Of a stretch of 26,151 nt of DNA, positions 11,355-23,800 are shown piece by piece; the stretch's first letter is position 1, and each line of letters begins with the position of its first letter. Position numbers and translations under genes: made by a program. The notes below the pieces were generated by a model. That model was not told the origin of the DNA. It saw only the letters and a list, made by a program, of their open reading frames with translations, and did not search any database. The DNA is from a virus: positions 1-26,151 of the IMG/VR virus record IMGVR_UViG_3300044638_006655; one strand, 5' to 3'.

Positions 11355-11426
11355 TTGATAACAACTTGCACCACTTAGCGCAAGTTTAATTTGCGGATTA
11401 TGCTAATCTATGCAATTTGCTACACC
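11355..11426. promoter_or_regulatory. Divergent control region with two operator-like palindromes
   Basis: The short AT-rich gap between the early operon (minus) and the repressor (plus). Palindrome 1 is ACTTGC...GCAAGT (11364-11385, 10-nt spacer). Palindrome 2 is GATTA-TGC-TAATC (11396-11408). AATTTGC occurs twice (from 11389 and 11414). For the minus strand, TTGCGC and TATCAA, 17 bp apart, are a weak promoter candidate. No convincing sigma-70 promoter was found for the plus strand. Binding by the adjacent HTH protein is inferred. Confidence 0.5.
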
Positions 11427-11867
11427 ATGAACGCCACCCCACTAACCGCCAAAGTGCTGGCCGGAGCACTTTCAATGCACGGTTGGAACCAGTCAGAACT
11501 CGCCGACAAGTGCGGCATCGCCCGCCCAACAGTCAGCCACCATCTGAGCGGCATGCGCACCATCCGCGACGACCATCTAACCCTCTACGCTGGCGTCCTC
11601 GATAAAGCTGAGCAGTGCATACTTGTCAGCGCTTGGTTGCAAGACACGCTGCCAGACATCGCCGCCAGAAACGTGCTGGATGCGCAAAGCAACACCCTCC
11701 GCGAAGCCGTCCGCACCTGGAGGGCTGGGTTGGACGATGAGCAGCGCAGCATGCTGGACTGGTGGAGCGGGCAGATTGCCACCGATGCCGAGACAGACCA
11801 CATTTTCCAAGCCATCACCCGGAAAGCAGGCTGGACAGCCGACCGCCAACCCATCCCCGAACGCTAA
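11427..11867 (+). CDS. XRE-family repressor, candidate phage CI-like regulator
   Basis: A 146-aa protein. The helix-turn-helix lies at residues 20-43 (WNQSELADKCGIARPTVSHHLSG), typical of XRE/Cro-CI domains. The C-terminal part (DTLPDIAARNVLDAQ, later AGLDDEQRSMLDWWSGQIATD) is helical and shows no LexA/CI peptidase motif, so induction by self-cleavage is not expected. I chose ATG 11427. ATG 11400 and TTG 11391 are in frame, but they lie inside the palindromes. It faces away from the early operon and is followed, even within its last codons, by the first attC. It could be the phage repressor, or a captured cassette gene whose left boundary is lost. Confidence 0.75.
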   Translation: MNATPLTAKVLAGALSMHGWNQSELADKCGIARPTVSHHLSGMRTIRDDHLTLYAGVLDKAEQCILVSAWLQDTLPDIAARNVLDAQSNTLREAVRTWRAGLDDEQRSMLDWWSGQIATDAETDHIFQAITRKAGWTADRQPIPER

Positions 11868-11952
11868 GGCTGAGGCTGAGGCACCGAACGAATCAACACC
11901 ATGAACACAACAGCCCAACCCCGAGCCGCTGCCTGCATCCGATTTGTTCGGC
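11856..11952 (+). repeat. attC site 1 (97 bp)
   Basis: R'' ends in AAC at 11860-11862 and R' is GTTCGGC at 11946-11952. The inner arms GGCTGAGGCTGAGGC (11868-11882) and GCCGCTGCCTGCATCC (11925-11940) pair imperfectly. R'' (CCCCGAAC) predicts a cassette start GTTCGGGG, which is absent upstream, so the repressor is not a complete cassette. Confidence 0.75.
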
Positions 11953-12131
11953 TTTTGCCGCGCTGGGTAAAACAGATGGCCTATGCCCCCGCAATCTATC
12001 GCCTCGAAGAGAGGTGCGCCGAGATCAAGGGCGACATCGACACCGAGAAGGATGCCGCACGCCGTGAACGAATGATGAAGGAATATCTCATCTACTCGGA
12101 TGCATCCAGCTTTCTCGTGAATGATGAATAA
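11901..12131 (+). CDS. Cassette 1 gene, hypothetical protein
   Basis: A 76-aa protein from the ATG at 11901, which lies in the loop of attC 1, so residues 2-16 (NTTAQPRAAACIRFV) come from the attC arm. An internal ATG at 11976 (MAYAPAIYRLEERC) would give a 51-aa product made wholly of cassette sequence and may be the original gene. The rest is helical and charged (EIKGDIDTEKDAARRERMMKEY). No family recognised. The stop sits just before attC 2. Confidence 0.5.
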   Translation: MNTTAQPRAAACIRFVRLLPRWVKQMAYAPAIYRLEERCAEIKGDIDTEKDAARRERMMKEYLIYSDASSFLVNDE

Positions 12132-12234
12132 GCCGAACGACCCAACTCTGCCGACCAAAGGGGCGGCGACTGACGCATGAAAGCACGAAAAACTACATCC
12201 GCCCCGAAGGTTGGCAGCAGTGCCGTGGTTCTGC
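12132..12234 (+). repeat. attC site 2 (103 bp)
   Basis: R'' GCCGAAC (12132-12138) is complementary to the start of its own cassette, GTTCGGC at 11946 (AAGCCGAAC against GTTCGGCTT). The arms CTGCCGACC (12148-12156) and GGTTGGCAG (12209-12217) pair, with outer GGGGCG/CGCCCC. R' is GTTCTGC at 12228. Nearly the same site recurs as attC 6. Confidence 0.85.
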
Positions 12235-12500
12235 CTCGAACGGCTTTCTGGTATCGCTGCGCTCACTGCGGCAAGATCACCTTCCGCAAGACTGACAGGC
12301 TGCTTCCGAAACGGTGGATCAAGTCATACTGCGAAGAGACGGGCAAGAATGTGAGGCTGCAACTCATGCCTGCGGTGGATGAAATCACCCGAACCGTTCG
12401 CGCCCTCAAAAAGCGCGGTCTTTGGCAGAACAATAGAGGTGAGCTACCCCGCCCCGTAAGCGGCGGTGGCTCGCAGAAAGGACTACCAAATGAAAAATGA
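12177..12500 (+). CDS. Cassette 2 gene, small zinc-ribbon-like protein
   Basis: A 107-aa protein. C28-x-x-C31 in YRCAHCGKITFRK and C52 could form a zinc site, although a fourth ligand is not obvious. The region is basic. Residues 9-18 (APKVGSSAVV) are encoded by attC 2 and the last 25 by attC 3 (through PRPVSGGGSQKGLPNEK), so the cassette-specific core is about 70 residues. The ATG is in the attC loop. The stop overlaps the start of the RNA ligase gene by 11 bp. No family recognised. Confidence 0.5.
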   Translation: MKARKTTSAPKVGSSAVVLPRTAFWYRCAHCGKITFRKTDRLLPKRWIKSYCEETGKNVRLQLMPAVDEITRTVRALKKRGLWQNNRGELPRPVSGGGSQKGLPNEK

Positions 12501-12549
12501 ACTCACTGCGGAGAGCGGGGGCGGGGTTAGCTCGACCGATTTGTTATGT
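12425..12549 (+). repeat. attC site 3 (125 bp)
   Basis: R'' GCAGAAC (12425-12431, in GGCAGAAC) is complementary to the cassette start GTTCTGCC at 12228. Left arm GGTGAGCTACCCCGCCCC and right arm GGGGCGGGGTTAGCTCGACC pair with one unpaired T, the typical extrahelical base. R' is GTTATGT (12543-12549). Confidence 0.85.
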
Positions 12550-13146
12550 GCGTTCGTGGAATTTCCGAAAATCACTCGGCTATCCCGCGACTGCATCATC
12601 ACCGAAAAGCTCGATGGCACGAACGCGCAAGTCTGCATCACCGAAGACGGTCAAATGCTCATCGGCTCGCGGACGCGCTGGATAACACCAGAGCAAGACA
12701 ACTACGGATTCGCGGCGTGGGCATACGCTCACCGCGAAGAACTGATGACGCTGGGCGTCGGGCGACACTTCGGGGAATGGTGGGGGCAAGGCATCCAGCG
12801 GAAATACGGCATGGCCGAAAAGCGATGGAGTCTATTCAACGTCTCGCGCTGGTGTCTGGCCGGTGAAACTCCGCAGCGAATCCCAACCGCTGACCCGCGC
12901 ATCGTGAAAATGCAGGACGTGCTGCCCGCGTGCTGCTCGCTCGTGCCGGTGATGTATCGCGGCATCTTCACGACGGACGCCTGCGAAGCTGCAATCGCCG
13001 ACCTGCGGGCGAACGGCAGCAAGGCCGCGCCCGGCTTCGGGAAGCCGGAAGGAATCATCTGCTACCACGTCGCCGGAAACTTCGGCTTCAAAAAGACTCT
13101 CGAAAAGGACGACGTGCCGAAAGCACTGCAAGCACATAACGATTAA
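12490..13146 (+). CDS. Cassette 3 gene, RNA ligase (nucleotidyltransferase family)
   Basis: A 218-aa protein. Motif I is EKLDGTN with the AMP-accepting lysine at K40. A motif III-like WSLFNVSRW lies near residue 110, motif IV is KPEGIICYH, and the motif V-like lysines are in FGFKKTLEKD. This is the pattern of Rnl2-type RNA ligases, in a short form without a long C-terminal domain. Such enzymes seal RNA 3'-OH/5'-phosphate nicks, and in phages can repair tRNAs cut by host anticodon nucleases (known of T4; inferred here). Residues 1-20 (ending SSTDLLC) come from attC 3. A GTG at 12466 would add eight residues. Confidence 0.8.
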   Translation: MKNELTAESGGGVSSTDLLCAFVEFPKITRLSRDCIITEKLDGTNAQVCITEDGQMLIGSRTRWITPEQDNYGFAAWAYAHREELMTLGVGRHFGEWWGQGIQRKYGMAEKRWSLFNVSRWCLAGETPQRIPTADPRIVKMQDVLPACCSLVPVMYRGIFTTDACEAAIADLRANGSKAAPGFGKPEGIICYHVAGNFGFKKTLEKDDVPKALQAHND

Positions 13147-13226
13147 AGTCTGGCGACGGCGGGCGCTGGACATCCGAAACCATAAACAGGCAACTCCCCG
13201 CCGTTGCCAGCACTGCCGGGTTCTCC
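13134..13226 (+). repeat. attC site 4 (93 bp)
   Basis: R'' ACATAAC (13134-13140, in GCACATAAC) is exactly complementary to its own cassette start GTTATGTGC at 12543. The arms CTGGCGACGGCGGG and CCCGCCGTTGCCAG pair with one unpaired base. R' is GTTCTCC (13220-13226). The RNA ligase stop lies within the site. Confidence 0.88.
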
Positions 13227-13248
13227 GGCGAACTACCCAAGACATACT

Positions 13249-13524
13249 ATGGCCGAAAACACCGAAATGATGGAACTGCAACGCAGACTCCATGATGCCC
13301 ACGAATCATCAGCACGGCTGCGTGACCGCATCACGGAACTAGAAGGATGGGTGGCAGAAGGGAAGCGAAACGGCACACGCTGCGCCGAAGAACGCGACAG
13401 TGCCGCCGAACTGCTAGCCGAGATTATGCGCGATGAAGTGAACGCTCAAGACGAGGCTGAAAAATGGCTTCGGGCTTACGCTCCGCATCTGCTTTTCTCG
13501 GAGAACGATCAAATCCAGCCATGA
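13249..13524 (+). CDS. Cassette 4 gene, coiled-coil hypothetical protein
   Basis: A 91-aa protein starting at ATG 13249, 23 bp inside the cassette, so its N-terminus is its own. Residues 5-70 are predicted by eye to be a continuous charged helix with heptad-like spacing (MMELQRRLHDAHESSARLRD, then RITELEGWVAEG). Similar short coiled-coil proteins with a leading ELQRRL segment are common in phages, but I cannot assign a role. The stop TGA overlaps the ATG of the next gene inside attC 5. Confidence 0.6.
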   Translation: MAENTEMMELQRRLHDAHESSARLRDRITELEGWVAEGKRNGTRCAEERDSAAELLAEIMRDEVNAQDEAEKWLRAYAPHLLFSENDQIQP

Positions 13525-13624
13525 GCCTTCCCAAAATCTGCACATGCCCCACGGTCCCATCTGCGAACTGCCCGTTCCACCACCAAGAATCTCGTGGCTC
13601 ATTGGCTGCGATGCCGGGTTCAGC
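13500..13624 (+). repeat. attC site 5 (125 bp)
   Basis: R'' GGAGAAC (in CGGAGAAC) is complementary to the cassette start GTTCTCCG at 13220. The arms CAGCCATGAGCC and GGCTCATTGGCTG pair with one unpaired base. R' is GTTCAGC (13618-13624). The loop carries the stop of one gene and the start of the next. Confidence 0.85.
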
Positions 13625-13883
13625 TTCGGTTGATGCGATCTTGGCTGACGACACTGGTGACAGTTCGCTTATTCACAAGCTCGCTAACCGCGCCCGCGAA
13701 ATGGAGGCGCTCGCTACCACGCTGATGCGGATATGCTACGACGAAGCGAATCGCCTTGCAAACCACGGCAGCAACGGCCTCGAAAACCTGGTGATGTCTC
13801 AACTCTACGACGCCGCCAACGACGCGAAGAAGAAGCTGAACGATCAAACTCTGCCGACCGAAGGGGCGGCGAAAAAGTCATGA
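13521..13883 (+). CDS. Cassette 5 gene, hypothetical protein
   Basis: A 120-aa protein from ATG 13521, which overlaps the previous stop (ATGA). The first 35 residues (including CTCPTVPSANCPFHH) are encoded by attC 5. An internal ATG at 13611 (MPGSASVDAIL) gives a 90-residue product that is mostly cassette sequence. The C-terminal part is helical (KLANRAREMEALATTLMRIC, then MSQLYDAANDAKKKLND). No family recognised. The stop overlaps the next start in attC 6. Confidence 0.5.
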   Translation: MSLPKICTCPTVPSANCPFHHQESRGSLAAMPGSASVDAILADDTGDSSLIHKLANRAREMEALATTLMRICYDEANRLANHGSNGLENLVMSQLYDAANDAKKKLNDQTLPTEGAAKKS

Positions 13884-13937
13884 ATACAGAATCGTCTACA
13901 CCCGCCCCGAAGGTTGGCAGCAGTGCCATTGTTCAGC
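13835..13937 (+). repeat. attC site 6 (103 bp)
   Basis: R'' GCTGAAC (in GAAGCTGAAC) is complementary over 10 bp to its own cassette start GTTCAGCTTC at 13618. The arms are close to those of attC 2 (CTGCCGACC and GGTTGGCAG). R' is GTTCAGC (13931-13937). Confidence 0.88.
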
Positions 13938-14203
13938 TTGTGTGTGAGGAATGGCGCTGCCGCTGGTGCGGCCCGGAATCCGAAGCCCTCCGCGCTCCTG
14001 ACCCATTCAATGAGGGTGACACGCTTATAGCCTGCCCCAAGTGCCGCGAGCAAACGCTACACACATGCTGCGATGAGCCGACTTGCACGATGGAAGCGAC
14101 CTGCGGAACACCGACGCCAGAAGGCTATCGGTGGACGTGCGGAAAACATCAGCCGAACGACCCGGCTATGCCGACGGCGAGCGATGGACGCCCGCTTACA
14201 TGA
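13880..14203 (+). CDS. Cassette 6 gene, Cys-rich double zinc-ribbon protein
   Basis: A 107-aa protein with ten cysteines. C27-x-x-C30 and C52-x-x-C55 make a probable zinc ribbon (WRCRWCG ... ACPKCRE). C63, C64, C69, C75 and C87 with H90 suggest a second metal site. The N-terminal residues 9-17 (APKVGSSAI) are encoded by attC 6 and nearly match those of the cassette 2 protein. The ATG overlaps the previous stop (ATGA). The C-terminus runs into attC 7. Probably a small nucleic-acid or protein-binding adaptor; function unknown. Confidence 0.55.
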   Translation: MNTESSTPAPKVGSSAIVQLVCEEWRCRWCGPESEALRAPDPFNEGDTLIACPKCREQTLHTCCDEPTCTMEATCGTPTPEGYRWTCGKHQPNDPAMPTASDGRPLT

Positions 14204-14243
14204 CAGACACTTTCGAGCCGTTGGCATCAGCCGATGGTTCAGG
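14152..14243 (+). repeat. attC site 7 (92 bp)
   Basis: R'' GCCGAAC matches the complement of its cassette start (GTTCAGC) with one T-to-C change, the only imperfect pair in the array. The arms GGCTATGCCGACGGC and GCCGTTGGCATCAGCC pair with one unpaired base. R' is GTTCAGG (14237-14243). The right half is almost the same as that of attC 8. Confidence 0.82.
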
Positions 14244-14290
14244 GCACGGTGGCCCACAACACCGAAGTAGAAACCGAACAACCCAAGACA

Positions 14291-14617
14291 ATGACATACC
14301 AAACCGAAGACATCGTAGCAGATACCAAGACATGGCGGCGTGACATCGACGCCATCATCCAGCGCGTCAAAAACGTGACGACACTGGACCCAAACACACA
14401 AGGACCAGACGGCAAGCCAGCGCAACCCATCGGCTACCGCGCCAGCCGTGAACGCTCAATCGCGATCACGAAACTGCAAGAAGCAGTGATGTGGCTTGGA
14501 ATGGACCTCAAGGCACTCGCGGAGGAAAATCCCGGCTTGCTGGAGAATCCGTATCCGAACTCGAAAGACCCGAGCAACACGAAGATCGAACCCACCGCAG
14601 ACGGGCTGAAACTGTGA
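14291..14617 (+). CDS. Cassette 7 gene, possible Acb2/Tad1-like anti-defence protein
   Basis: A 108-aa protein. Residues about 52-74, SRERSIAITKLQEAVMWLG and following, match a pattern I associate with small phage proteins of the Acb2/Tad1 hairpin type (SRExSLAxTKLEEAxMWxNxAI). Members of that group sequester cyclic nucleotides made by CBASS or Thoeris immune systems. The N-terminal half (VADTKTWRRDIDAIIQRVKNV) is a second helix, consistent with a helical hairpin. The family link is from memory and only moderate. ATG 14234 within attC 7 would add 19 residues. The stop is followed by 48 bp before attC 8. Confidence 0.5.
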   Translation: MTYQTEDIVADTKTWRRDIDAIIQRVKNVTTLDPNTQGPDGKPAQPIGYRASRERSIAITKLQEAVMWLGMDLKALAEENPGLLENPYPNSKDPSNTKIEPTADGLKL

Positions 14618-14665
14618 ACAACCTGTGACGGGCGCTCACGAAGGCCGAAAGACTGACGTGAGTGC

Positions 14666-14758
14666 CCTGAACGCTCAGGCTGTGCCCAACGGCGAGCGAG
14701 ACGCGCCGCAAAAACAATAGATCAACTTCGAGCCGTTGGCACCAGCCGATGGTTCTGG
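14666..14758 (+). repeat. attC site 8 (93 bp)
   Basis: R'' CCTGAAC, in GTGCCCTGAAC, is complementary over 11 bp to its own cassette start GTTCAGGGCAC at 14237, the longest match in the array. The arms GGCTGTGCCCAACGGC and GCCGTTGGCACCAGCC pair with one unpaired base. R' is GTTCTGG (14752-14758). Confidence 0.9.
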
Positions 14759-14782
14759 AGCAACCCCGAAAACACAACAGAC

Positions 14783-15043
14783 ATGGAACTACAACTAGCC
14801 TCTAACGACGAAATCACACTGCCCGACTGGATCGGAGCAACATCACTCACCCTCGCTGAAATCGGCGCGGTGGCGTGCCTCGCCTGCATGAAAAACGGCA
14901 ACAAAGAATCCGGTGCCCGAATGCAAACTGAGGAAATGGCGGCAGCGCTCGGCACACTCAAAGAGAAGAACGTGCTACAAGTCTCACTCGAAGGGAAACG
15001 CCTTTCAATGGAGATCGACCTCGACGCCGTAGCGCCCGCATGA
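14783..15043 (+). CDS. Cassette 8 gene, hypothetical protein, winged-helix-like
   Basis: An 86-aa protein starting 31 bp inside the cassette. The order of elements fits a small winged helix: LTLAEIGAVACLACMKNG (helix), RMQTEEMAAALGTLKEKNVL (helix-turn-helix), and a two-strand wing QVSLEGKRLSMEIDL. It resembles the N-terminal domains of phage replication proteins that test for gene expression state, but I cannot place it in a family. No SD is visible before the ATG. The stop lies just ahead of attC 9. Confidence 0.55.
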   Translation: MELQLASNDEITLPDWIGATSLTLAEIGAVACLACMKNGNKESGARMQTEEMAAALGTLKEKNVLQVSLEGKRLSMEIDLDAVAPA

Positions 15044-15047
15044 GTCT

Positions 15048-15105
15048 CCAGAACGACAAGCTCTGCCATGAGGCTCTGCGAATTGGCAGCAGCGCCGTGT
15101 TCTCT
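15048..15105 (+). repeat. attC site 9 (58 bp, minimal)
   Basis: R'' CCAGAAC (in CTCCAGAAC) is complementary over 9 bp to its cassette start GTTCTGGAG at 14752. The arms CTCTGCCAT and AATTGGCAGCAG pair with an unpaired base. R' is GTTCTCT (15099-15105). It is the shortest site in the array, near the lower size limit known for attC. Confidence 0.82.
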
Positions 15106-15143
15106 GACGTTGGTGAAAAATCTTCAAATAAGGACTTGCACAA

Positions 15144-15160
15144 TGTAGCTTAATGCTACA
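15144..15160. promoter_or_regulatory. Perfect palindrome upstream of the cassette 9 gene pair
   Basis: TGTAGC-TTAAT-GCTACA, a 6-bp inverted repeat with a 5-nt spacer, lies in an AT-rich patch inside the cassette. It sits next to a possible -35 (TTGCAC, 15136-15141), with no clear -10. It is probably the operator of the XRE protein encoded downstream, which suggests that this cassette carries its own promoter. Confidence 0.5.
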
Positions 15161-15200
15161 CACTCCAAACATGCACACAACATCCACCGGCAGGTTCACA

Positions 15201-15398
15201 ATGACTCCAGACGCAAGCGACATCAAAACCGCCTGCGAAAAGGCTCGGCTCTCACGCATACTGTCCGCTCCAATCGACGCGGGCGGCAACTGGAAGGTAT
15301 CGCCAGAAGATCAAGCCTGGGCGATCCGGGTCAGCATGAGCCGCCCCGCCTGGGCAGTCGCCACCCTCGCCGGTCACGGAATCCATGACCGCCACTGA
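15201..15398 (+). CDS. Cassette 9, first gene: small hypothetical protein paired with an XRE regulator
   Basis: A 65-aa protein from ATG 15201 (MTPDASDIKTACEKARL). In-frame ATGs at 15153 and 15171 lie in or next to the palindrome and are less likely. An AGG eight bases before 15201 could be a weak SD. The gene overlaps the following XRE gene by 14 bp. Pairing with a small HTH gene and a private palindrome recalls toxin-antitoxin modules, but no toxin motif is visible. The segment DQAWAIRVSMSRPAWAV is the best conserved-looking part. Confidence 0.45.
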   Translation: MTPDASDIKTACEKARLSRILSAPIDAGGNWKVSPEDQAWAIRVSMSRPAWAVATLAGHGIHDRH

Positions 15399-15576
15399 AT
15401 ACAAAGCCGCCCGCGAGCACCTCGGCACACAAGCCGAGGTTGCCCGCTTGCTGGGCGTTAACCGTGTGACCGTCGCGAAGCGGGAGAATGGCACCATGAC
15501 ACTCACAACCGAGGCAGTCCTAGCGATTCAGTCGCTCCGCAGGCCGAAGCGTGCCCGCAAGTCAGAGAACGCATAA
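15385..15576 (+). CDS. Cassette 9, second gene: small XRE-family DNA-binding protein
   Basis: A 63-aa protein consisting almost only of a helix-turn-helix (AEVARLLGVNRVTVAKRENG, residues 17-36). It starts MTATEYKAAREHLG, and the cassette 11 protein starts MTSAEYKATRERLG, so the two are paralogues. It overlaps the preceding gene by 14 bp. Probably binds the palindrome at 15144-15160 and represses its own operon (inference). The stop TAA is part of attC 10. Confidence 0.7.
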   Translation: MTATEYKAAREHLGTQAEVARLLGVNRVTVAKRENGTMTLTTEAVLAIQSLRRPKRARKSENA

Positions 15577-15678
15577 GCTGAGGCACAGCCACCCCGAACA
15601 ACCAACGACATGAATACGCAAGAAACCATCGGACAACCTGAAGGCGGGGTGGCTGTTGCCTCCAGCGACTTGTTATGC
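15564..15678 (+). repeat. attC site 10 (115 bp)
   Basis: R'' AGAGAAC, in GTCAGAGAAC, is complementary over 10 bp to its cassette start GTTCTCTGAC at 15099. The arms GCTGAGGCACAGCCACCCCG and CGGGGTGGCTGTTGCC-TCCAGC pair, with two unpaired bases. R' is GTTATGC (15672-15678). Confidence 0.9.
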
Positions 15679-16566
15679 CCAGTCAAATTCACGAAAATCG
15701 TGTCGTTCAGCTTTGGTCAAACCAGCGGCTATATGCTTCGGAAACTGATGGATGCAAATCCGCAAACCTTCGATGACGACTTCTGTGTGGTGTTCGCAAA
15801 CACTGGACGCGAACACGAAGCAACGCTGGACTTCGGGCATGAAGTGGAAACCCGATGGGGAGTGCCGATAGTCTGGCTGGAATACTGCCGAGAGAATGAA
15901 GCGCACTCGCAAAAGGTGGTGGACTACGAAACTGCCGCCCGGCGCAACGCGCCAGGCCCGTTCGATGCGTGGCTGACAGTAACCAAGACGCTACCGAATG
16001 TGCGGAGTCGTGGATGCAGCAGCGACCTAAAAACTCGAATCATCAAGCGGTGGCTGAAATCAATCGGCGTCGAACACTACGAGGACTATGTGGGAATCCG
16101 GTCAGACGAGGCGCACCGCAAGCTGGAAATCCTCGCGCAGATGCCGAAATACATCACCGGCAAATTCCCTCTGTGCGATGACGGCACGACGAAAGAAACC
16201 GTAAACAAATGGTGGGACGCACACGACTTCCGGCTGAACATCCCGAACCACCAAGGGAACTGCGATATGTGCTTCCTGAAAGCGAAATGGAAGCGCCTAT
16301 CCATCGCGCAGCGTGAACCGCAACACGCGCAATGGTGGGCTGACTGGGAACGCAAGATGCGCGAACGCGGAGTGACTGGACGCGGGGCGCAATGGATAGC
16401 CGGCCAAAGCTACGAGGGAATTATCGCAGCATCCCAACACCCCGAATTTGATTTTAGCGAACAGGACGTGCCCTGCTCCTGTGCGGTCGGTGGCTATCGT
16501 GACGCGGACGATGAGGGGCATAACGTCCACATCCAGCCACATGAGGGGCGGGCTGGATGTGGATAG
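15610..16566 (+). CDS. Cassette 10 gene, PAPS-reductase / PP-loop family protein
   Basis: A 318-aa protein with an ATP-pyrophosphatase loop SFSFGQTSG (residues 32-40), CSSDLKTR (136-143) and IRSDEAHR (163-170), the order found in phosphoadenosine-phosphosulfate-reductase-like proteins. Cysteine pairs in GNCDMC (C218, C221) and C289/C291 may hold a metal or Fe-S cluster. Stand-alone phage members have no settled role. Relatives act in sulfur transfer to DNA or RNA. The first 22 residues come from attC 10 (SSDLLC echoes the RNA ligase N-terminus), and the last ten or more from attC 11. It is the largest cassette gene. Confidence 0.78.
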   Translation: MNTQETIGQPEGGVAVASSDLLCPVKFTKIVSFSFGQTSGYMLRKLMDANPQTFDDDFCVVFANTGREHEATLDFGHEVETRWGVPIVWLEYCRENEAHSQKVVDYETAARRNAPGPFDAWLTVTKTLPNVRSRGCSSDLKTRIIKRWLKSIGVEHYEDYVGIRSDEAHRKLEILAQMPKYITGKFPLCDDGTTKETVNKWWDAHDFRLNIPNHQGNCDMCFLKAKWKRLSIAQREPQHAQWWADWERKMRERGVTGRGAQWIAGQSYEGIIAASQHPEFDFSEQDVPCSCAVGGYRDADDEGHNVHIQPHEGRAGCG

Positions 16567-16615
16567 CAGGGGAGACAATGCCGCCCCTCATGTTGGCTGC
16601 GATGGCGTGTTCGTC
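16518..16615 (+). repeat. attC site 11 (98 bp)
   Basis: R'' GCATAAC, in GGGCATAAC, is complementary over 9 bp to its cassette start GTTATGCCC at 15672. The arms CATCCAGCCACATGAGGGG and CCCCTCATGTTGGCTGCGATG pair with two unpaired bases, one of the clearest hairpins of the array. R' is GTTCGTC (16609-16615). Confidence 0.9.
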
Positions 16616-16666
16616 CCCGTTCCCCAAGACTCCCGAAAGAATGTCACAAAAAGTTACATTTAGCGT

Positions 16667-16708
16667 TTGACTCTATGTCACCTTGGGTTACTATCTCCCG
16701 TAACCCAA
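16667..16708 (+). promoter_or_regulatory. Promoter with overlapping palindromic operator (cassette 11)
   Basis: TTGACT (16667-16672) and TACTAT (16689-16694), spaced by 16 bp, form a good sigma-70-type promoter. TTGGGTTAC and GTAACCCAA (16683-16691, 16700-16708) are a perfect 9-bp inverted repeat that covers the -10. A protein bound there would block transcription, and the HTH gene at 16940 is the likely source. The first start codon is at 16719. Confidence 0.65.
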
Positions 16709-16718
16709 TCCAAACAAT

Positions 16719-16940
16719 ATGACAATCAATCTTCAAATCACCGCCGCCGCAATCTCCCGCGCTATGTCCTTCGACTCCTTGCTCATCGCGAAGGGTAAAA
16801 AGTCCACAGTCGTGAGCGCCTCATCTGACAAAAACACCTGCGAATCACTCGCCTGGCATTATGCCCGCTGGGGATTCACTCTTGTGATGGAACCTAGCGA
16901 GGCCCACAAAGCCTATCACTCAATCACCGGCACATGGTAA
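16719..16940 (+). CDS. Cassette 11, first gene: small hypothetical protein paired with an XRE regulator
   Basis: A 73-aa protein (MTINLQITAAAISRAMSFDS...), followed directly by an XRE gene (TAATG overlap). It starts 10 bp downstream of the promoter/operator. The segment KSTVVSASSDKNTCESLAWH and the C-terminal EAHKAYHSITGTW give no family match I know. The arrangement (small protein, XRE protein, own promoter) mirrors cassette 9 although the first genes are not similar. A toxin-antitoxin-like pair is possible but unproven. Confidence 0.5.
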   Translation: MTINLQITAAAISRAMSFDSLLIAKGKKSTVVSASSDKNTCESLAWHYARWGFTLVMEPSEAHKAYHSITGTW

Positions 16941-17137
16941 TGACCTCCGCCGAATACAAAGCCACACGGGAGCGGCTGGGGATGACTCAGGCCGCTCTTG
17001 CCGTTGCGCTGGATGTCTCGCGCAAGGCGATCAACGAACGCGAGGCGGGCGGCACCATCACGCGGGAAGCGGCGATGGCCTTGGAGCTTCTGGAACTCCG
17101 AACAACCCCAAAGCGCCGCAAGGGGACGAACGTCTAA
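16940..17137 (+). CDS. Cassette 11, second gene: small XRE-family DNA-binding protein
   Basis: A 65-aa protein with an HTH at residues 14-37 (TQAALAVALDVSRKAINEREAG). I chose ATG 16940 over ATG 16934 because MTSAEYKATRERLG aligns with MTATEYKAAREHLG of the cassette 9 paralogue and because the stop of the preceding gene overlaps it as TAATG. Likely an autorepressor acting on the palindrome at 16683-16708. The stop lies in attC 12. Confidence 0.7.
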   Translation: MTSAEYKATRERLGMTQAALAVALDVSRKAINEREAGGTITREAAMALELLELRTTPKRRKGTNV

Positions 17138-17220
17138 AGTGAGCCACGCCATGAATAGACTCCACCGAGCGAAGCGAGCCACACGCGCCTTATGGCGTTG
17201 GCTCCACTGCCTTGTTCGCC
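17125..17220 (+). repeat. attC site 12 (96 bp)
   Basis: R'' GACGAAC, in GGGGACGAAC, is complementary over 10 bp to its cassette start GTTCGTCCCC at 16609. The arms GTGAGCCACGCC and GGCGTTGGCTCCAC pair with two unpaired bases. R' is GTTCGCC (17214-17220). It is the last complete site before the integron integrase. Confidence 0.88.
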
Positions 17221-17363
17221 CCGGCTACGTGGCGCACTTGGAGGACCTGCTGAAACATGTGGACATTCACGGGGCCTACAGGCGTGGAGGATACGACCAG
17301 ATGACTACCGCCCAGAAGGAGACATTCAACCGCATTGCCAGCCAGCCATTCACCTGGGAATGA
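17151..17363 (+). CDS. Cassette 12 gene, small hypothetical protein
   Basis: A 70-aa protein whose ATG lies in the loop of attC 12, so roughly the first 20 residues (up to LHCL) are encoded by the attC. The cassette part, YVAHLEDLLKHVDIHGAYRR then YDQMTTAQKETFNRI, is helical. No family recognised. The stop is just ahead of the attC 13 half-site. Confidence 0.5.
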   Translation: MNRLHRAKRATRALWRWLHCLVRPGYVAHLEDLLKHVDIHGAYRRGGYDQMTTAQKETFNRIASQPFTWE

Positions 17364-17365
17364 GG

Positions 17366-17372
17366 GCGAACA
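17366..17372 (+). repeat. attC 13 half-site (R'' box only)
   Basis: GGCGAAC, in GGGCGAAC, is complementary over 8 bp to the start GTTCGCCC of cassette 12 at 17214, as expected for that cassette's own attC. No GTT and no matching right arm occur between 17373 and the IntI start at 17428, so the site is truncated at the junction with the integrase gene. Confidence 0.65.
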
Positions 17373-17427
17373 GTGATTATCCAGAACAACTTTCCAGATA
17401 GCCACCCGAAAACCGGAAATCCTACCC

Positions 17428-18420
17428 ATGAATTTGACTGACACCCTAGAGCAAGTGCGCATCACCTGCCGCATGCGCAGGCTTTCGCGGCACACCGAAG
17501 ACACTTATGCCGCATGGATTGCCCGCTTTGCGCGTCACGTCGTCAGCATGCCCGGCACCACGCGGGAAGACCGCGTGCGCAGCTACCTCGAGCAACTCGC
17601 GCCCCGCAGTGCTGCCAGCACCCAAAACCAAGCTCTGAATGCCATTGTGTTCCTGTATCGGGACGTACTCAAGCAGCCGCTGGGCGATCTCGGCAAATGG
17701 GCACGCGCCAAACGCCCCGCACGGCTGCCCACTTGGCTATCCCCGCAAGAAATGCAGCGCCTCCTGGAAGTCATGCCCGCAGGAACCCGACTTATGGCCG
17801 AGCTAGCCTACGGCTCCGGCCTGCGCATTGCCGAGTTGCTGGCCCTGCGCATCAAAGACATCGACCTTGACGCTCACCTCATCACCGTGCGTGGCGGCAA
17901 AGGCGACAAAGACCGCGTGACCGTCCTGCCGAAAACCCTCGTGCATCGCCTGCACGTCCATCTGACCCGCATCCGCATCTTGCATGAGCAAGACCGCAGT
18001 GCCGGGGCCATGCCCATTTACTTGCCCGACGGCCTGGAACGCAAATTCCCCAATGCAGGCCGGGAATGGCCGTGGTTCTGGCTCTGGCCGGCCGCCAGCG
18101 AGTCCACCGATCCACGCACCGGCATTCTGCGGCGGCATCACGTTCATGAAGACACCCTTGGCAAAGCGCTTAAACTCGCCACCCGCAAAGCCGGTCTGCA
18201 CAAGCGAGTCACCGCCCACACTTTGCGGCACAGCTTTGCCACCAATCTGCTCGCAGGCGGAGCCAGCATCACTCAGGTGCAAGAATTGCTTGGGCATAAC
18301 AGCGTCGAAACCACCCAGGTTTATTTGCACTGCATTCCCCAGTTTGCCGCCACCATCACCAGCCCCCTCGATGTCCTGCCCCAGGCCCCCAACATCGTGC
18401 CATTTTCCCGCGCCGCGTAA
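17428..18420 (+). CDS. intI: Integron-type tyrosine recombinase (IntI-like)
   Basis: A 330-aa tyrosine recombinase. Catalytic residues are R133 (GLRIAELLAL), K158, H264 and R267 (HTLRHSF), H290 (LLGH) and Y299 (TTQVYLH). Integron integrases differ from XerC/D by an extra segment between K and H. Here residues 200-241 (LPDGLERKFPNAGREW, then STDPRTGILRRHHVHE) match that insertion closely (LARKYPNAxREWxWQ, DPRSGxxRRHHxHE). The N-terminal AASTQNQALNAI and AKRPARLP also fit. It would recombine folded single-stranded attC sites. Unlike usual integrons, it lies after the last cassette and on the same strand. No promoter was found in the 64 bp before it. Confidence 0.9.
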   Translation: MNLTDTLEQVRITCRMRRLSRHTEDTYAAWIARFARHVVSMPGTTREDRVRSYLEQLAPRSAASTQNQALNAIVFLYRDVLKQPLGDLGKWARAKRPARLPTWLSPQEMQRLLEVMPAGTRLMAELAYGSGLRIAELLALRIKDIDLDAHLITVRGGKGDKDRVTVLPKTLVHRLHVHLTRIRILHEQDRSAGAMPIYLPDGLERKFPNAGREWPWFWLWPAASESTDPRTGILRRHHVHEDTLGKALKLATRKAGLHKRVTAHTLRHSFATNLLAGGASITQVQELLGHNSVETTQVYLHCIPQFAATITSPLDVLPQAPNIVPFSRAA

Positions 18421-18438: not shown

Positions 18439-18465
18439 AAAGCCGCAGGAACCTCCTGCGGCTTT
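18439..18465. terminator. Bidirectional intrinsic terminator
   Basis: AAAGCCGCAGG and CCTGCGGCTTT form a perfect 11-bp stem with the loop AACCT. Plus-strand readers meet TTTCTTGT after the stem. Minus-strand readers meet a TTTTTCG run. It sits between the convergent IntI (plus) and phage integrase (minus) genes and can end both transcripts. Confidence 0.85.
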
Positions 18466-18481: not shown

Positions 18482-20089
18482 TTACGCTCTGCGCCGTCCT
18501 TGCTCCTGCCTTTCCAGCCTGCCCGGCTGCGCCCGGTCGGCCAGCCGCCCGCCATGAATAACCGTGTATTTGCCCGGCACCACCCGCCGAGAAATCTCCG
18601 CCAGTCGCCGTTTGAGCACGGCCAAAGCCTCCAGTTGCTCATTCACCGTCTGCCGGTCCAGATCCTTCGCAGCCTCCTGCCGCAGCGCCTCGCGTTTTGC
18701 CGCCTGCACTGCCTGCCTCGCCAGCACCATCGCCGCCCGTTTCGCCTCACGCTGCGCCTGCACTTGACCCCAGGCACTCAGCGGCTCGGCACTGCCGTTT
18801 GCGGCAAACGGATTCACCAGCGGCACCACCTTTTTGTTCCTTGTGTAGGTTGAGCGCACCATGGCGGTGCTCGTGTGACCTGCCGCCGCCGCCGCCATCT
18901 CATCGCCCAGCGTATTGCGCAGCAGGTTCAGCTTGTGATGCCGGAACATGCTCATCTTCTTGGTGCCCGTCATGCCCAGCGCCGTCAGCCATTCATTGGC
19001 CGCCGTGTGGATGTGCAGCGCCTCGGTGGCATGCCGAGCGCCAAACAAATTTTCTGGTGTTCGCACCGCCAGCACCGCCTTCACGCATTCCGCGTCCACC
19101 AGGATGCGCGACTCATTGCCGCCCTTCGCCTCCGGCTGCGTCACCAGCCCGGTGCCATCCGCCAGCACCTCCAGCGCATCGCCCGGCAGGGCCGCCACCT
19201 TCCCCGGCCTGCCAGACACCCACGCGCAAAGCAGCACAAAGGCCCACACCTGCGGCTGCGCCTGCTGAAGCCTGGGCAACTCCGCCATGATCCGATGCAT
19301 TAGCTCGTCGTCGATCTCCCGGTGCCCCTTCGGTCTCGGCAGCAGCTTCGCCAGCTTCACATTCAAAAACTCCTCCAGCGGCGGCACCCTCACTCCGCGC
19401 AACACATGCTCACGGCTCAATCCATTAAAAATGCTTTTGGCGCTCACCACATGCCCAAAGATGGTCGTGTTCCACTCTGCCGTCGTCTTCGTGTCGATGC
19501 GCAGCTTGCGGGCGCGTTGCAGATCCCGCAGCTCCCGCCAGCCCGTAGCTGGCATGTTCTTACCAGCGCCCAGGCCCAGCCAGCCACGGCGGCCCGCCTC
19601 CTGCCGCAGCTCCACCCAATTATGCACCAGGTCCCGGTTCAGTTCTTCCCACACCATTTGCGCCATCTGCTTGCCTGTTGTCTGCTCATAAATTGTCCGC
19701 AGAAAATTCACCCGCTGCCTCCGGTCCTTCGGTCCTTTCTCCAGATACACTTCCAGCACCTCCGCCACCGTCGCCCACTTCTTTGGCGTGCGCAGTTCGT
19801 GCAGCCGGTCCATCTCCCCCCGTTGCAGCAGCGCCGTGTGCGTTTCAAGAAACGATCCTGCCCACTTCCGCACCGCCACCTGGCAGCCGCAATTCGGCCT
19901 CGTCTCCACCGGATTCCCCACCTCGGCCAGGCACTTGTCGCAAATCGGGTAGGGATGCTTCGAGCGCGTCAACGGCTTGTCCGTCCCCACAAAGAAGCGC
20001 ACCACCCATTTCCACTCATACTGCGGCAGCCCAGCCTCGCGCACCTTCGGCTGCCGATAAATCGAATAAGATCCAAGCGCGGTTTTCAT
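18482..20089 (-). CDS. int: Phage integrase, tyrosine recombinase family
   Basis: A 535-aa protein. The catalytic half shows R294 (SGRPGKVAAL), K322 (AKGGNES), H385 (RHHKLNLLR), H405 (AAAGHTS) and the probable nucleophile Y415 (STYTR). Where most relatives have HxxR, this one reads HKLN with an Arg only six residues after His, so the Arg assignment is uncertain. A CDKC...NCGC cluster (residues 50-69) suggests an N-terminal zinc unit. The long C-terminal tail (about 440-535) is a charged helix. I chose ATG 20089 because it overlaps the stop of the zinc-ribbon gene (ATGA) and has the SD GGAGG. It lies next to attP. Confidence 0.8.
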   Translation of the reverse strand: MKTALGSYSIYRQPKVREAGLPQYEWKWVVRFFVGTDKPLTRSKHPYPICDKCLAEVGNPVETRPNCGCQVAVRKWAGSFLETHTALLQRGEMDRLHELRTPKKWATVAEVLEVYLEKGPKDRRQRVNFLRTIYEQTTGKQMAQMVWEELNRDLVHNWVELRQEAGRRGWLGLGAGKNMPATGWRELRDLQRARKLRIDTKTTAEWNTTIFGHVVSAKSIFNGLSREHVLRGVRVPPLEEFLNVKLAKLLPRPKGHREIDDELMHRIMAELPRLQQAQPQVWAFVLLCAWVSGRPGKVAALPGDALEVLADGTGLVTQPEAKGGNESRILVDAECVKAVLAVRTPENLFGARHATEALHIHTAANEWLTALGMTGTKKMSMFRHHKLNLLRNTLGDEMAAAAAGHTSTAMVRSTYTRNKKVVPLVNPFAANGSAEPLSAWGQVQAQREAKRAAMVLARQAVQAAKREALRQEAAKDLDRQTVNEQLEALAVLKRRLAEISRRVVPGKYTVIHGGRLADRAQPGRLERQEQGRRRA

Positions 20090-20295
20090 ACTGCGCCCTC
20101 CGTGCCAAGGTTGGCAGCCTGCCATTGGCGCACCAGCCATTCCTGCGCAGGCCACGCCCCGCCGCCATCTCGGCAGTCGGGATTATCACACACTCGAGCG
20201 TAACCCGTGCGCATGCGTAGGTCTTCCTCCAGCTTCAGGTCCGCATAACAAGCCGGGCAATACCCGCAATCGATCTTGGCTTCAGTGGTAGTCAT
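20086..20295 (-). CDS. Small zinc-ribbon protein upstream of the integrase
   Basis: A 69-aa protein with CGYCPAC (C11, C14, C17) and CDNPDC (C37, C42), followed by AWPAQEWLVRQWQAAN. This resembles the small Lar-like zinc proteins of phages, in which a Cys pair, a second Cys pair and a W-N/W-R end are typical. I make no functional claim. The ATG at 20295 follows GAAACACAC and lacks an SD. A longer frame starts at 20364 but runs through the attP arm repeats. Its stop overlaps the integrase start, so it may be an Xis or accessory partner (inference). Confidence 0.6.
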   Translation of the reverse strand: MTTTEAKIDCGYCPACYADLKLEEDLRMRTGYARVCDNPDCRDGGGAWPAQEWLVRQWQAANLGTEGAV

Positions 20296-20838: not shown

Positions 20839-23800
20839 TCATCGCACCACCGCCGCTTTGGCGGTGTTCTTAATTTCCTTGGCGCGGCGCTGGATGGTCT
20901 TGTCCGCTTCCTCCACCGGCATTTGCAGCAGGTCGGAGCCTTCGAGGTGGAGCCATTCCTTGTAGCCTTGGCCCACGGCCTTCTCGTATTTCCACACCGC
21001 GTCACGTCCGAGCGTTTCCAGCGGCACGCGCACGTTGTCCTTGATGATGGTCACTTGATCGCTCGGCATCGGCAGGGCCAGGCCACGCGCCAGCAGGGCA
21101 CCGAGCACGCGATGCGCCTCGGCGCTCTCCACGCTGGTGTAGGCGCGACTCCACGGGGCGCGTTGCAGTTTGACCTCTTCGCCCAGCAGATTGAGCTGGG
21201 GCCGGCCGTCGTTCACGAACTTGCGGGCGAAGGGCATGCTGCGCAGCATCAGCTCGGCTGTGCCTTCGGGTTTGAAGTTGCGCGGATCGGTCCAGGTCTC
21301 GGCGTCCTTGATCAGCGTGGGCATGAATCCACCGGCAAAGTTGGTGCCGATCTTGACCATCTTATCAATCGTGCCGCTCACCGCGTCGGCGCTGAAAGTC
21401 GGCTCGCCAAACAGTTCCACCAGATTCCGCACGGCCGACACGTTCTTGATCTGCGTGTAGCCGGTGGCAACGCCGCGCAGCAGATGCCCAGCCGTGCCGT
21501 GTTCGGCCCAGCTTGCGGGTTTGTGGCGCTTCTCATCGAGCATCCCGCCCACCACGGCAAACAGGCCCATGGTCGGCCATTGCTTGTAGCTCACGCGGCG
21601 CACCTGGTCACCGTCGCGCTTCCACATCGTCAGGCGTTCGTAGCCTGCGGCCATGCGTTCCTTCGCCTGCTGCGGGTTCAAGGTGCTCCAGTCGCCCTCG
21701 ATCTGCCAGCCCTCGTCTTCGTCGTCGCTGTTCAGGAACACCGCCGCCAGCGTGCTTGCCAGCATCAGGCCCACCAGATTCTTGCCAAGTAAAAGCTCCT
21801 GCTGCATGCGGCTCACGTCGCGCCCGTAGAATCCCGCCTTGCCCAGCACATAACTGCCGGGGATGTAGCGCGTCAGATCCGCGCCAAAGTTAGCGCCAAA
21901 GCGCATGAACCGCGTGCCGGTGATGCCGTGCAAGGAACCGGCCATCATGCCAGAAATCACCCGTGTGAACCGGTTCGCCGTCACGTCCTCCGCATAGTCA
22001 CCCAGCCCGCGCTGAATGCTGCCGAGTCCCTGCTTCATCGCGCTGTAAACCACGCCGAACAGCCCGGTGGGGTCGTTCTGATAGGCCGCCATGTCGCCGA
22101 TCTCCGTCGCGGCGGCGTAATCGGCAGGCTTCACGGTGCCGTTGAGCAGTTCTCGAGTGCGAGCGCTCACCGTGGCACGTTCCTGGCTGGTCTGCGGCTC
22201 GTTGCCGCCGGTCACTTCACGCAGCGCTTGCTTGCGAGCGTCGGCACGTTCGGTCTCGGTGAATCCCACCTTGCCCTGGTAGAGTTCAGGATGCAGCGCG
22301 CGCGCCACGGCGATGGCCCCCTGCGTGGTGGCCGTGTTGTTGATGTGATCCGCCGCAGCCATCAGGCGGCCGGTGAACATCATCACAGGGGCCAGACCAT
22401 ACTTTTGAAAGGTGTTGCCGTTCTGCCACAGGTTTTCCCCCAGCGGCACGGGCGTCACGGATGTTTCACCTTCCAGCGCCTTCTTCAGATCGGCGCCAAA
22501 GCGTTTCAGGTAGCTGGTATCGCCCTTGAACAGGATTTGCCCGCTCTCCCGCACGCCTTCAAACAGTCCACGCCACCACTGCGCATGCGCGTCGATGGCC
22601 GCGCGGCCCTGGCCACGTGCCACGAGCCCGCCGATCTGCATCAGGTTGGTGCCCATGCCGTTCACCGCCGCCAGCCAGGTGTCAAACTGCGTGCGCAGGC
22701 CGGACAGCACGGCGGCGGTCCAGTATGAGTTCAGCACCTCGATCCAGCTCGCGCCGGTCTTCTTCTGAATGGCGTTCAGCAGGTCGCGGAGCTTCTGGTT
22801 GCGAATCACACCCTCCGGCAGCTTCCAGGCAGCTTCCGCCAGCGTGCGCAGTTGCGCGGTGTCGGCGCTCGTGAGCATGCGCAAGCCGTATTGGGGTGCC
22901 ACGGCATCCCGCCAGGCGGCGCTGTCAAACATGCCTAGGTTGATCATGCGGAGCATCTTCGGCAGCACGGCCTTGGCCTTCTTGCGGTCGCTGGCGTCCT
23001 TCTCGCCCAGCACACCGGCCTTATCCAGCTCCTTGTCGAAGACTTTCTTGCGGGCCCGCTGCCAGGCTTTGTCCAGTTCGTTCGTGAGCTGCAAACGTTC
23101 GTTGGCGCTCAGTTTCACCAGTGCCTTGTGCTGCATCAGGCGTTTATAGATTTCGCGCTGCCGCTCCAGTTGGGCGGCGGGCATCTCCGTGAAGATGTCC
23201 GCCCACTTCATACCGGGGGCCACTTTGGTGCGCAGTGAGTTCAGCAGCTTTGCCAGTTGGGGCGAGTTCACTTTTAGCAGATCCGAGCGGCGGGACTCGC
23301 GCACCTCAGTCTGATTGCCTTCCATGCCTTTGAGCCGGGCCACACCGGTTTCGATCATCACCGCAGCCAATCGGCGCGGATCACGCGGCAGGCGGCCCGT
23401 GAGGCGTTCCCAGGCTTGGCGGAGCCAGGTCACAAATCGTTGCCACAGGCCGGGGTTCTTGGCTTCCACCATCTGTCGCACGGTGTCCAGCGCTCGCACG
23501 CTGGCTTCCTCGTTGCGGTTGGCGGCATCGTAAAGCGCGGCGGTGATGTTCTCGATGGTGGCCCGCTCGTTCACGTCCAGGCTATTCCACAGCGCATCAA
23601 ACTGCTGGCGCATGGCCGGATCTTGAAACAGCAGGTGGCCGATTTCGTGCTCGATCTTGCCCACCACCTGGGAAGTTTCCAAAGCGGCGGCGTTCAGCTC
23701 CAGCACGTTGCCATTCATGCGGGCATCCCATTCCGCCTGCTCTTGATGCAGGATCTTCACACGCGGCGGCAGCGTGCCGCCAAAGTAGGTGCGGGCCGTC

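Follow-up and report, generated by a model that had tools for sequence, protein, structure and literature searches.

A probably complete and recently active integron of a tailed-phage lineage, with cassette genes inverted relative to their attC sites

Integrons are treated as bacterial and, more recently, archaeal platforms, in which a promoter at attI reads the inserted cassettes. The subject here is an integron locus in IMG/VR virus record IMGVR_UViG_3300044638_006655, a metagenomic contig with linear ends that was analysed over its full 26,151 bases (hereafter, the window). By recombination criteria the locus is an integron, but neither the direction of its genes nor the position of the promoter is that of a canonical one. 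From comparison of the sequence with related contigs, it is very probably a complete, recently active integron belonging to a tailed-phage lineage, with inverted cassettes that are read from the phage side. An earlier note on this DNA had reported an attC array beside an IntI-type gene in a phage genome; the inverted genes, attI, the signs of recent activity, and the candidate counter-defence cargo were absent from it.

Three complete integrons and 17 clusters of attC sites lacking integron integrases (CALINs) have been described in phage genomes, mostly as captured pieces of host or class 1 integrons (Qi 2023; PMC9892861). The earlier note's view that few, if any, phage integrons had been described therefore needs adjusting. 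In that survey, host-derived or class 1 integrons occur in temperate phages, and the integrase-less clusters in virulent phages. The complete examples (Vibrio phage Va_90-11-286_p16, Shewanella phage M16-3, and an E. coli P1 isolate) resemble the window in that a complete integron resides in a phage genome, but they are host or class 1 pieces with the canonical gene direction (checked for M16-3), whereas the window has a lineage-inherited intI and inverted cassettes. The CALINs of virulent phages (TJE1, P12002L, PH101; Qi 2023) share attC-delimited small genes, including methyltransferase cargo in some, but have no integrase. Bacterial chromosomal integrons, such as Verrucomicrobial arrays, have in common with the window the IntI family, an attI 5' of intI, attC geometry with extrahelical bases, and the cassette boundaries; however, their genes point away from intI and have attC on the 3' side, whereas those of the window run toward intI with attC at the 5' end, within phage operons. 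In Treponema integrons, intI and the cassette genes are co-directional, as here, but intI is upstream and transcribed toward the cassettes (PMC3607928), unlike the window, in which intI follows the array and has attI at its 5' end. No report of an inverted, phage-lineage integron was found in the open-access literature, with preprints and most subscription papers outside the search.

The array comprises twelve attC sites, listed below; the strand given is that of the canonical attC top strand. The earlier note had placed all 12 correctly, its positions being the starts of the 7-base boxes, 4 bases before AAC.

11856-11952, minus: attC 1, weak stem; boxes CCCGAAC and GTTCGGC, the GTT box 7/7 complementary to the next AAC box
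12132-12234, minus: attC 2, plus-strand hairpin with its extra base on the 3' side; the L007-shared block has its left breakpoint here
12425-12549, minus: attC 3, T-N6-G as plus-strand extrahelical bases; junction used in L004
13134-13226, minus: attC 4, from hairpin scan and boxes; the L007-shared block has its right breakpoint here
13500-13624, minus: attC 5, from hairpin scan and box complementarity
13835-13937, minus: attC 6, from hairpin scan and boxes; junction used in L005
14152-14243, minus: attC 7, from hairpin scan and box complementarity
14666-14758, minus: attC 8, from hairpin scan and box complementarity
15048-15105, minus: attC 9, short loop, from box complementarity; junction used in L004 and L005
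15564-15678, minus: attC 10, from hairpin scan and boxes; AAC box joined straight to attI in L005
16518-16615, minus: attC 11, from hairpin scan and box complementarity
17125-17220, minus: attC 12, from hairpin scan and box complementarity

The region 11,801-17,430 was scanned for AAC, spacer, imperfect stem, loop, stem, spacer, and GTT, with a score cut-off of at least 9. Ten of the 12 sites pass, compared with a mean of 0.1 and a maximum of 2 hairpins in 100 dinucleotide shuffles of the same region. The two remaining sites, 11860 and 15052, have weak stems (short or imperfect) and are rescued by the complementarity of their boxes. The AAC boxes lie at 11860, 12136, 12429, 13138, 13504, 13839, 14156, 14670, 15052, 15568, 16522, and 17129. 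Because the two end boxes of a cassette pair in its circular form, they should be complementary: over the 12 intervals, the left GTT box and right AAC box agree at 83/84 bases and are exact reverse complements in 11 cassettes, and none of 20,000 permutations did as well (best permutation, 76). The two boxes within one hairpin match at merely 4-7 of 7 bases. An Rfam scan gave no match; we judged box complementarity and natural junctions to be stronger than a covariance model, as variable loops make a short alignment unreliable. The twelve sites thus have the R''/R' boxes, L arms, unpaired spacers, one-arm extrahelical bases, and variable loops of an attC array, which upholds the architecture claimed in the earlier note.

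An attC site recombines as a folded single bottom strand that is recognised via its extrahelical bases, which are defined as those of the R''-L'' arm and determine the strand and the box that is cleaved (PMC2727003); the best-excised form has T-N6-G on the bottom strand (PMC3053210). In each of the ten scored hairpins of the window, the 3' arm on the plus strand has a net surplus of one or more bases (the one at 14670 also has a compensating gap), and where two extrahelical bases are resolved they are T followed by C or G, 5-6 bases apart. The same scan put these bases on the expected side in Shewanella phage M16-3, in Verrucomicrobial chromosomal arrays, and in a class-1-like array. The bottom strand of the attC sites is therefore the plus strand of the window. 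The sites are thus minus-oriented, the canonical arrangement for an intI that lies on plus.

The right end of the array is formed by attI and the integrase gene:

17365-17427, minus: attI, box GGCGAAC then AGTGATTATCC, just 5' of intI; conserved across the lineage, with everything leftward differing
17428-18420, plus: intI, integron integrase, TIGR02249 at 347 bits (curated cut-off 265)
18439-18465, plus: intrinsic-terminator-like hairpin, 12-bp stem with 7 GC pairs, directly after intI; a pattern match only

The integrase matches the IntI4 structure 2a3v, its nearest solved relative, over the full length, and its catalytic residues (R133, H264, R267, H290, Y299) are invariant in the alignment. 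The gene encodes an integron-type tyrosine recombinase, in line with the IntI-type gene of the earlier note. The block AAC-AGTGATTATCC, or a close variant of it, lies ~25-70 bases 5' of intI throughout the lineage. Contigs L011, L012, L013, and L019 are 95-100% identical to the right of this block and unrelated to its left, which identifies it as an attI that has been used repeatedly: in near-identical phages, unrelated cassettes abut its AAC box.

Natural junctions show which unit moves. L005, which comes from a different metagenome, matches intI and its right flank at 99.5% identity, and in it AAC 15568 is joined to the attI AAC at 17369, and AAC 13839 to AAC 15052; in L004, AAC 12429 is joined to 15052. 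In L007, whose integrase is 85% identical, positions 12132-13142 recur at 99.8% amid far more divergent DNA. In the pairs of related arrays compared, many breakpoints lie no more than a few bases from an AAC box and GTT boxes have none, so that crossover is at the R' box and the mobile unit runs from AAC to AAC, with the hairpin on its left. Cassettes have thus been gained, lost, and reshuffled among related phages at AAC boxes and attI, beside an IntI-type gene; such whole-cassette differences between near-identical contigs, which the earlier note had proposed looking for, indicate that the integron has been active. Relatives of window cassettes also lie outside the main array, in G003 (31418-31757, minus) and G004 (988-1357 and 38359-38551, minus). 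These correspond to 13504-13841, 13138-13507, and the HTH gene at 16934 in the window; they are solitary or secondary insertions on the opposite strand, perhaps at secondary sites.

These junctions bear on a reading in which the attC sites are plus-oriented, the genes canonical, and intI merely flipped as in Treponema, the cassettes being ordinary. All genes are co-directional with intI, as in that genus (PMC3607928). However, the extra bases are on the wrong arm for plus-strand attC sites at 10/10 scored sites, junctions are at AAC and never at GTT boxes, the hairpin that leaves in L005 does so with the gene to its right rather than its left, and attI adjoins intI on its 5' side; the Treponema intI, by contrast, is transcribed toward the cassettes. 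We regard this reading as very improbable.

The array genes, with the fixed helix-turn-helix (HTH) gene on the left flank, are the following open reading frames (ORFs):

11427-11867, plus: HTH (Cro/CI-type) regulator, fixed left flank, PF01381 6.7e-06; 57% homologue at the same place in L007
11901-12131, plus: cassette ORF, start inside attC 1; 63% homologue beside attI in L007
12177-12500, plus: cassette ORF, start in the attC 2 loop, stop in the attC 3 loop
12490-13146, plus: RNA ligase cassette ORF, PF09414 7.5e-12; start in the attC 3 loop, GTG 12466 possible
13249-13524, plus: cassette ORF, stop overlapping the next start (ATGA 13521-13524)
13521-13883, plus: cassette ORF, start in attC 5, ATGA overlap 13880-13883 in attC 6; 90% copy elsewhere in G003
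13880-14203, plus: cassette ORF, start in the attC 6 loop
14234-14617, plus: Tad1/Acb2-like cassette ORF, candidate counter-defence gene, PF24729 3.8e-07; start perhaps 14291
14783-15043, plus: cassette ORF, from the ORF list
15201-15398, plus: first ORF of a two-gene cassette, small protein; inverted repeat 15144-15160 upstream
15385-15576, plus: second ORF of that cassette, Cro-like HTH, PF01381 4.1e-07; homologues in other phage arrays
15610-16566, plus: PAPS-reductase-like cassette ORF, PF01507 4.3e-05; start in the attC 10 loop
16719-16940, plus: first ORF of a two-gene cassette; promoter-like site 16667-16694, not above chance
16934-17137, plus: second ORF of that cassette, Cro-like HTH, PF01381 2.9e-07
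17151-17363, plus: cassette ORF next to attI, start inside attC 12

The left-flank HTH gene ends just beyond the first AAC box; it was considered as a cassette and rejected, as no partner GTT box (GTTCGGG) lies to its left. Pfam matches among the plus-strand array ORFs, which were the ones scanned, are to RNA ligase, the Tad1/Acb2 hairpin domain, PAPS reductase, and two Cro-like HTH domains.

Gene direction was called with a codon model trained on intI genes, with attC set as minus relative to intI on plus. Cassettes of close phage relatives gave 28 plus, 1 minus, and 12 unclear calls, and those of more distant viral contigs 32 plus, 0 minus, and 16 unclear; Verrucomicrobial chromosomes gave 2 plus, 13 minus, and 35 unclear (Fisher p 2.7e-08, close relatives vs. 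bacteria; to be set against the inversion, some cassettes are shared, and the counts are to that extent not fully independent). When genes of the viral arrays were called without overlaps, the result agreed with the codon calls. Strand counts by longest ORF were dropped as misleading, since genes extend beyond the following AAC box and antisense ORFs are long in GC-rich DNA. The plus-strand calls mean that the phage cassettes are inverted: attC is at the 5' end of the cassette genes, not the 3' end, and the genes run toward intI. The canonical arrangement, with attC 3' of a gene read in the attC top-strand direction, is thus absent. A Pc promoter at attI/intI could not drive the cassettes in sense, as their genes run toward it; this bears on expression rather than recombination, and the locus still counts as an integron.

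The locus lies in phage surroundings, as the earlier note had claimed. In relatives G009 and L026, DnaB, p196, p135, the array, intI, and the small and large terminase subunits (TerS, TerL) follow one another on one strand, and other relatives also have DnaB, p135, the array, intI, TerS, and TerL co-directional. In G003, DnaB is at the other contig end, as in a circularly permuted genome, and the order p135, array, intI, TerS, TerL is the same; beyond TerL there follow a major head protein (phrog_1328, 1.4e-43), a tail assembly chaperone, and an endolysin, such that the head, tail, packaging, and lysis genes by which Caudoviricetes are recognised are syntenic around intI in this relative. The more distant contigs L147 and L149 have clear terminases, and L149 also has a portal. 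The window itself encodes a DnaB helicase and a replication initiation protein, and no head or tail gene was recognised in it; its terminase, assigned by synteny, is 82-84% identical to that of G002, G003, and L025. The occurrence of the same intI amid replication, terminase, and head genes in relatives indicates that it is resident in a phage lineage.

As a metagenomic contig with linear ends and no isolate, the window might be a chimeric assembly that joins a host integron to phage sequence, the circumstance that the earlier note had named as refuting its claim. Independent contigs L004, L005, and L007 cross both flanks and exclude such a mis-join: the array-intI-recombinase join is present in L004 and L005, and the order left flank, array, intI in L007, all from different metagenomes, and the synteny recurs in many contigs. 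The recurrence of both flanks argues strongly against a mis-join, and we consider a chimera extremely improbable.

A piece of a host chromosomal or plasmid integron could instead have been newly captured by one phage, with normal cassettes and nothing phage-specific. Published phage integrons are mostly captured host or class 1 pieces, and Verrucomicrobia, which are possible hosts, often carry integrons: IntI exceeds the cut-off in 81/289 sampled genomes of this phylum (that of G001), some with three or four copies. However, more than 20 viral contigs have an IntI relative at 63-100% identity, and phage synteny is conserved in many of them (a first scan found the integrase at 51-100% identity in 24 viral contigs, and an alignment-based search added more); the closest bacterial-genome match found is 46%, on a contig of a metagenome-assembled genome (MAG), and the cassettes are inverted relative to bacterial arrays. 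Recent capture is strongly disfavoured and very unlikely. In a tree, the phage integrases form several well-supported phage-only clades that are interleaved with bacterial ones, and more than one transfer is therefore likely. Two further records were noted: L121, an IMG/VR record from an isolate (2834908352), has ~17 class-1-like attC sites with the canonical gene direction by ORF length and is likely a host integron classed as viral, and L150 (11457-12817) resembles Treponema in layout, with plus-oriented attC-like hairpins and a plus-strand gene 3' of intI.

An attI-side promoter would read the inverted genes antisense, so expression would have to come from the phage side. In operon-embedded relatives, everything from DnaB through the cassettes to the terminase has one direction. 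Transcription in the window may enter past the left-flank HTH gene, cross the array into intI, and stop at the terminator-like hairpin after it (18439-18465), with some HTH cassettes adding internal promoters. The first in-frame ATG is inside an attC hairpin in 7/12 window cassettes (11901, 12177, 12490, 13521, 13880, 15610, 17151), and several upstream genes stop in the same hairpin, twice with an ATGA overlap (13521-13524, 13880-13883). We infer that start codons are placed inside attC loops; the overlap of start and stop there could allow neighbouring cassettes to be translationally coupled. A consistent inversion would be expected if attI dictates the direction of attC and selection favours cassettes that are co-directional with transcription of the phage.

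The array might nevertheless recombine and be a silent store or relic, its genes unexpressed and inverted by drift, a reading for which the failure of the promoter search to find a convincing promoter can be cited. We think this unlikely, as the reading frames are unbroken and their codon use is phage-like, cassettes have changed recently between near-identical phages, and the inverted orientation occurs in several IntI clades. Inverted repeats precede each HTH gene (15144-15160, TGTAGC-N5-GCTACA; 16685-16706, GGGTTAC-N8-GTAACCC; 11364-11386, AACTTGC...GCAAGTT). These look like operators, and an HTH cassette may carry an autoregulated promoter of its own into the array.

Among 76 phage cassette proteins there are matches to Tad1 (2), Tad2, N6/N4 and Dam methyltransferases, and SspD-like/PAPS-reductase-like proteins, as well as to DHH, HD, RNA ligase, and exoribonuclease domains. 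For the Tad1/Acb2-like ORF of the window, PF24729 is above the cut-off and the match to Tad1 structure 8kbb is short and local (E 0.048). The cassettes that resemble anti-defence genes are those with Tad1/Acb2, Tad2, and methyltransferase matches, and a counter-defence role for part of the cassette pool is plausible.

Several observations weigh against an expressed integron of a tailed phage with counter-defence cargo. The TerL of the window has no Pfam or PHROG match and found nothing in a profile search of PDB, and its AlphaFold model has a pLDDT of 35; the assignment rests on position, a Walker-like motif, and synteny. For a Verrucomicrobial host, terminase relatives in 388 genomes of the MAG's phylum amount to two weak matches. 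The direction of transcription and the promoters are inferred, and the sole promoter-like match in the promoter search is not above chance. The starts in attC loops are first in-frame ATGs, and later TTG starts are possible. Most of the 76 cassette proteins have no match, and the anti-defence labels come from profile matches, some of them weak (Tad1 vs. PDB, E 0.048).

A broader proposal, to which we incline slightly, is that phages keep their own integron lineages with a separate, inverted cassette pool that fits phage operons, in which start and stop signals in attC loops make any cassette order translatable and counter-defence genes are enriched. The recombination machinery is unchanged, and in several phage IntI clades the genes consistently face the other way; such an inversion would mean a cassette pool separate from the bacterial one. 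It would also offer a handle on the open question of how cassettes arise, attC being joined at the 5' rather than the 3' end. The platform would give phages a combinatorial exchange of small accessory genes, partly for counter-defence, against shifting host immunity. Tools that assume that genes follow the attC direction may misread such arrays.

Two large genes lie to the right of the integron. The first (18482-20155) encodes a 557-aa protein with a C-terminus that is tyrosine-recombinase-like by eye and without a Pfam, NCBIfam, or PHROG match; its counterparts in the more distant lineage members are 39-54% identical, and it is possibly a phage integrase of an undescribed family. The second (20839-26130) encodes a 1763-aa protein without a Pfam match, which is related to a 2352-aa protein in G003 and has long stretches that are 50-91% identical in relatives.

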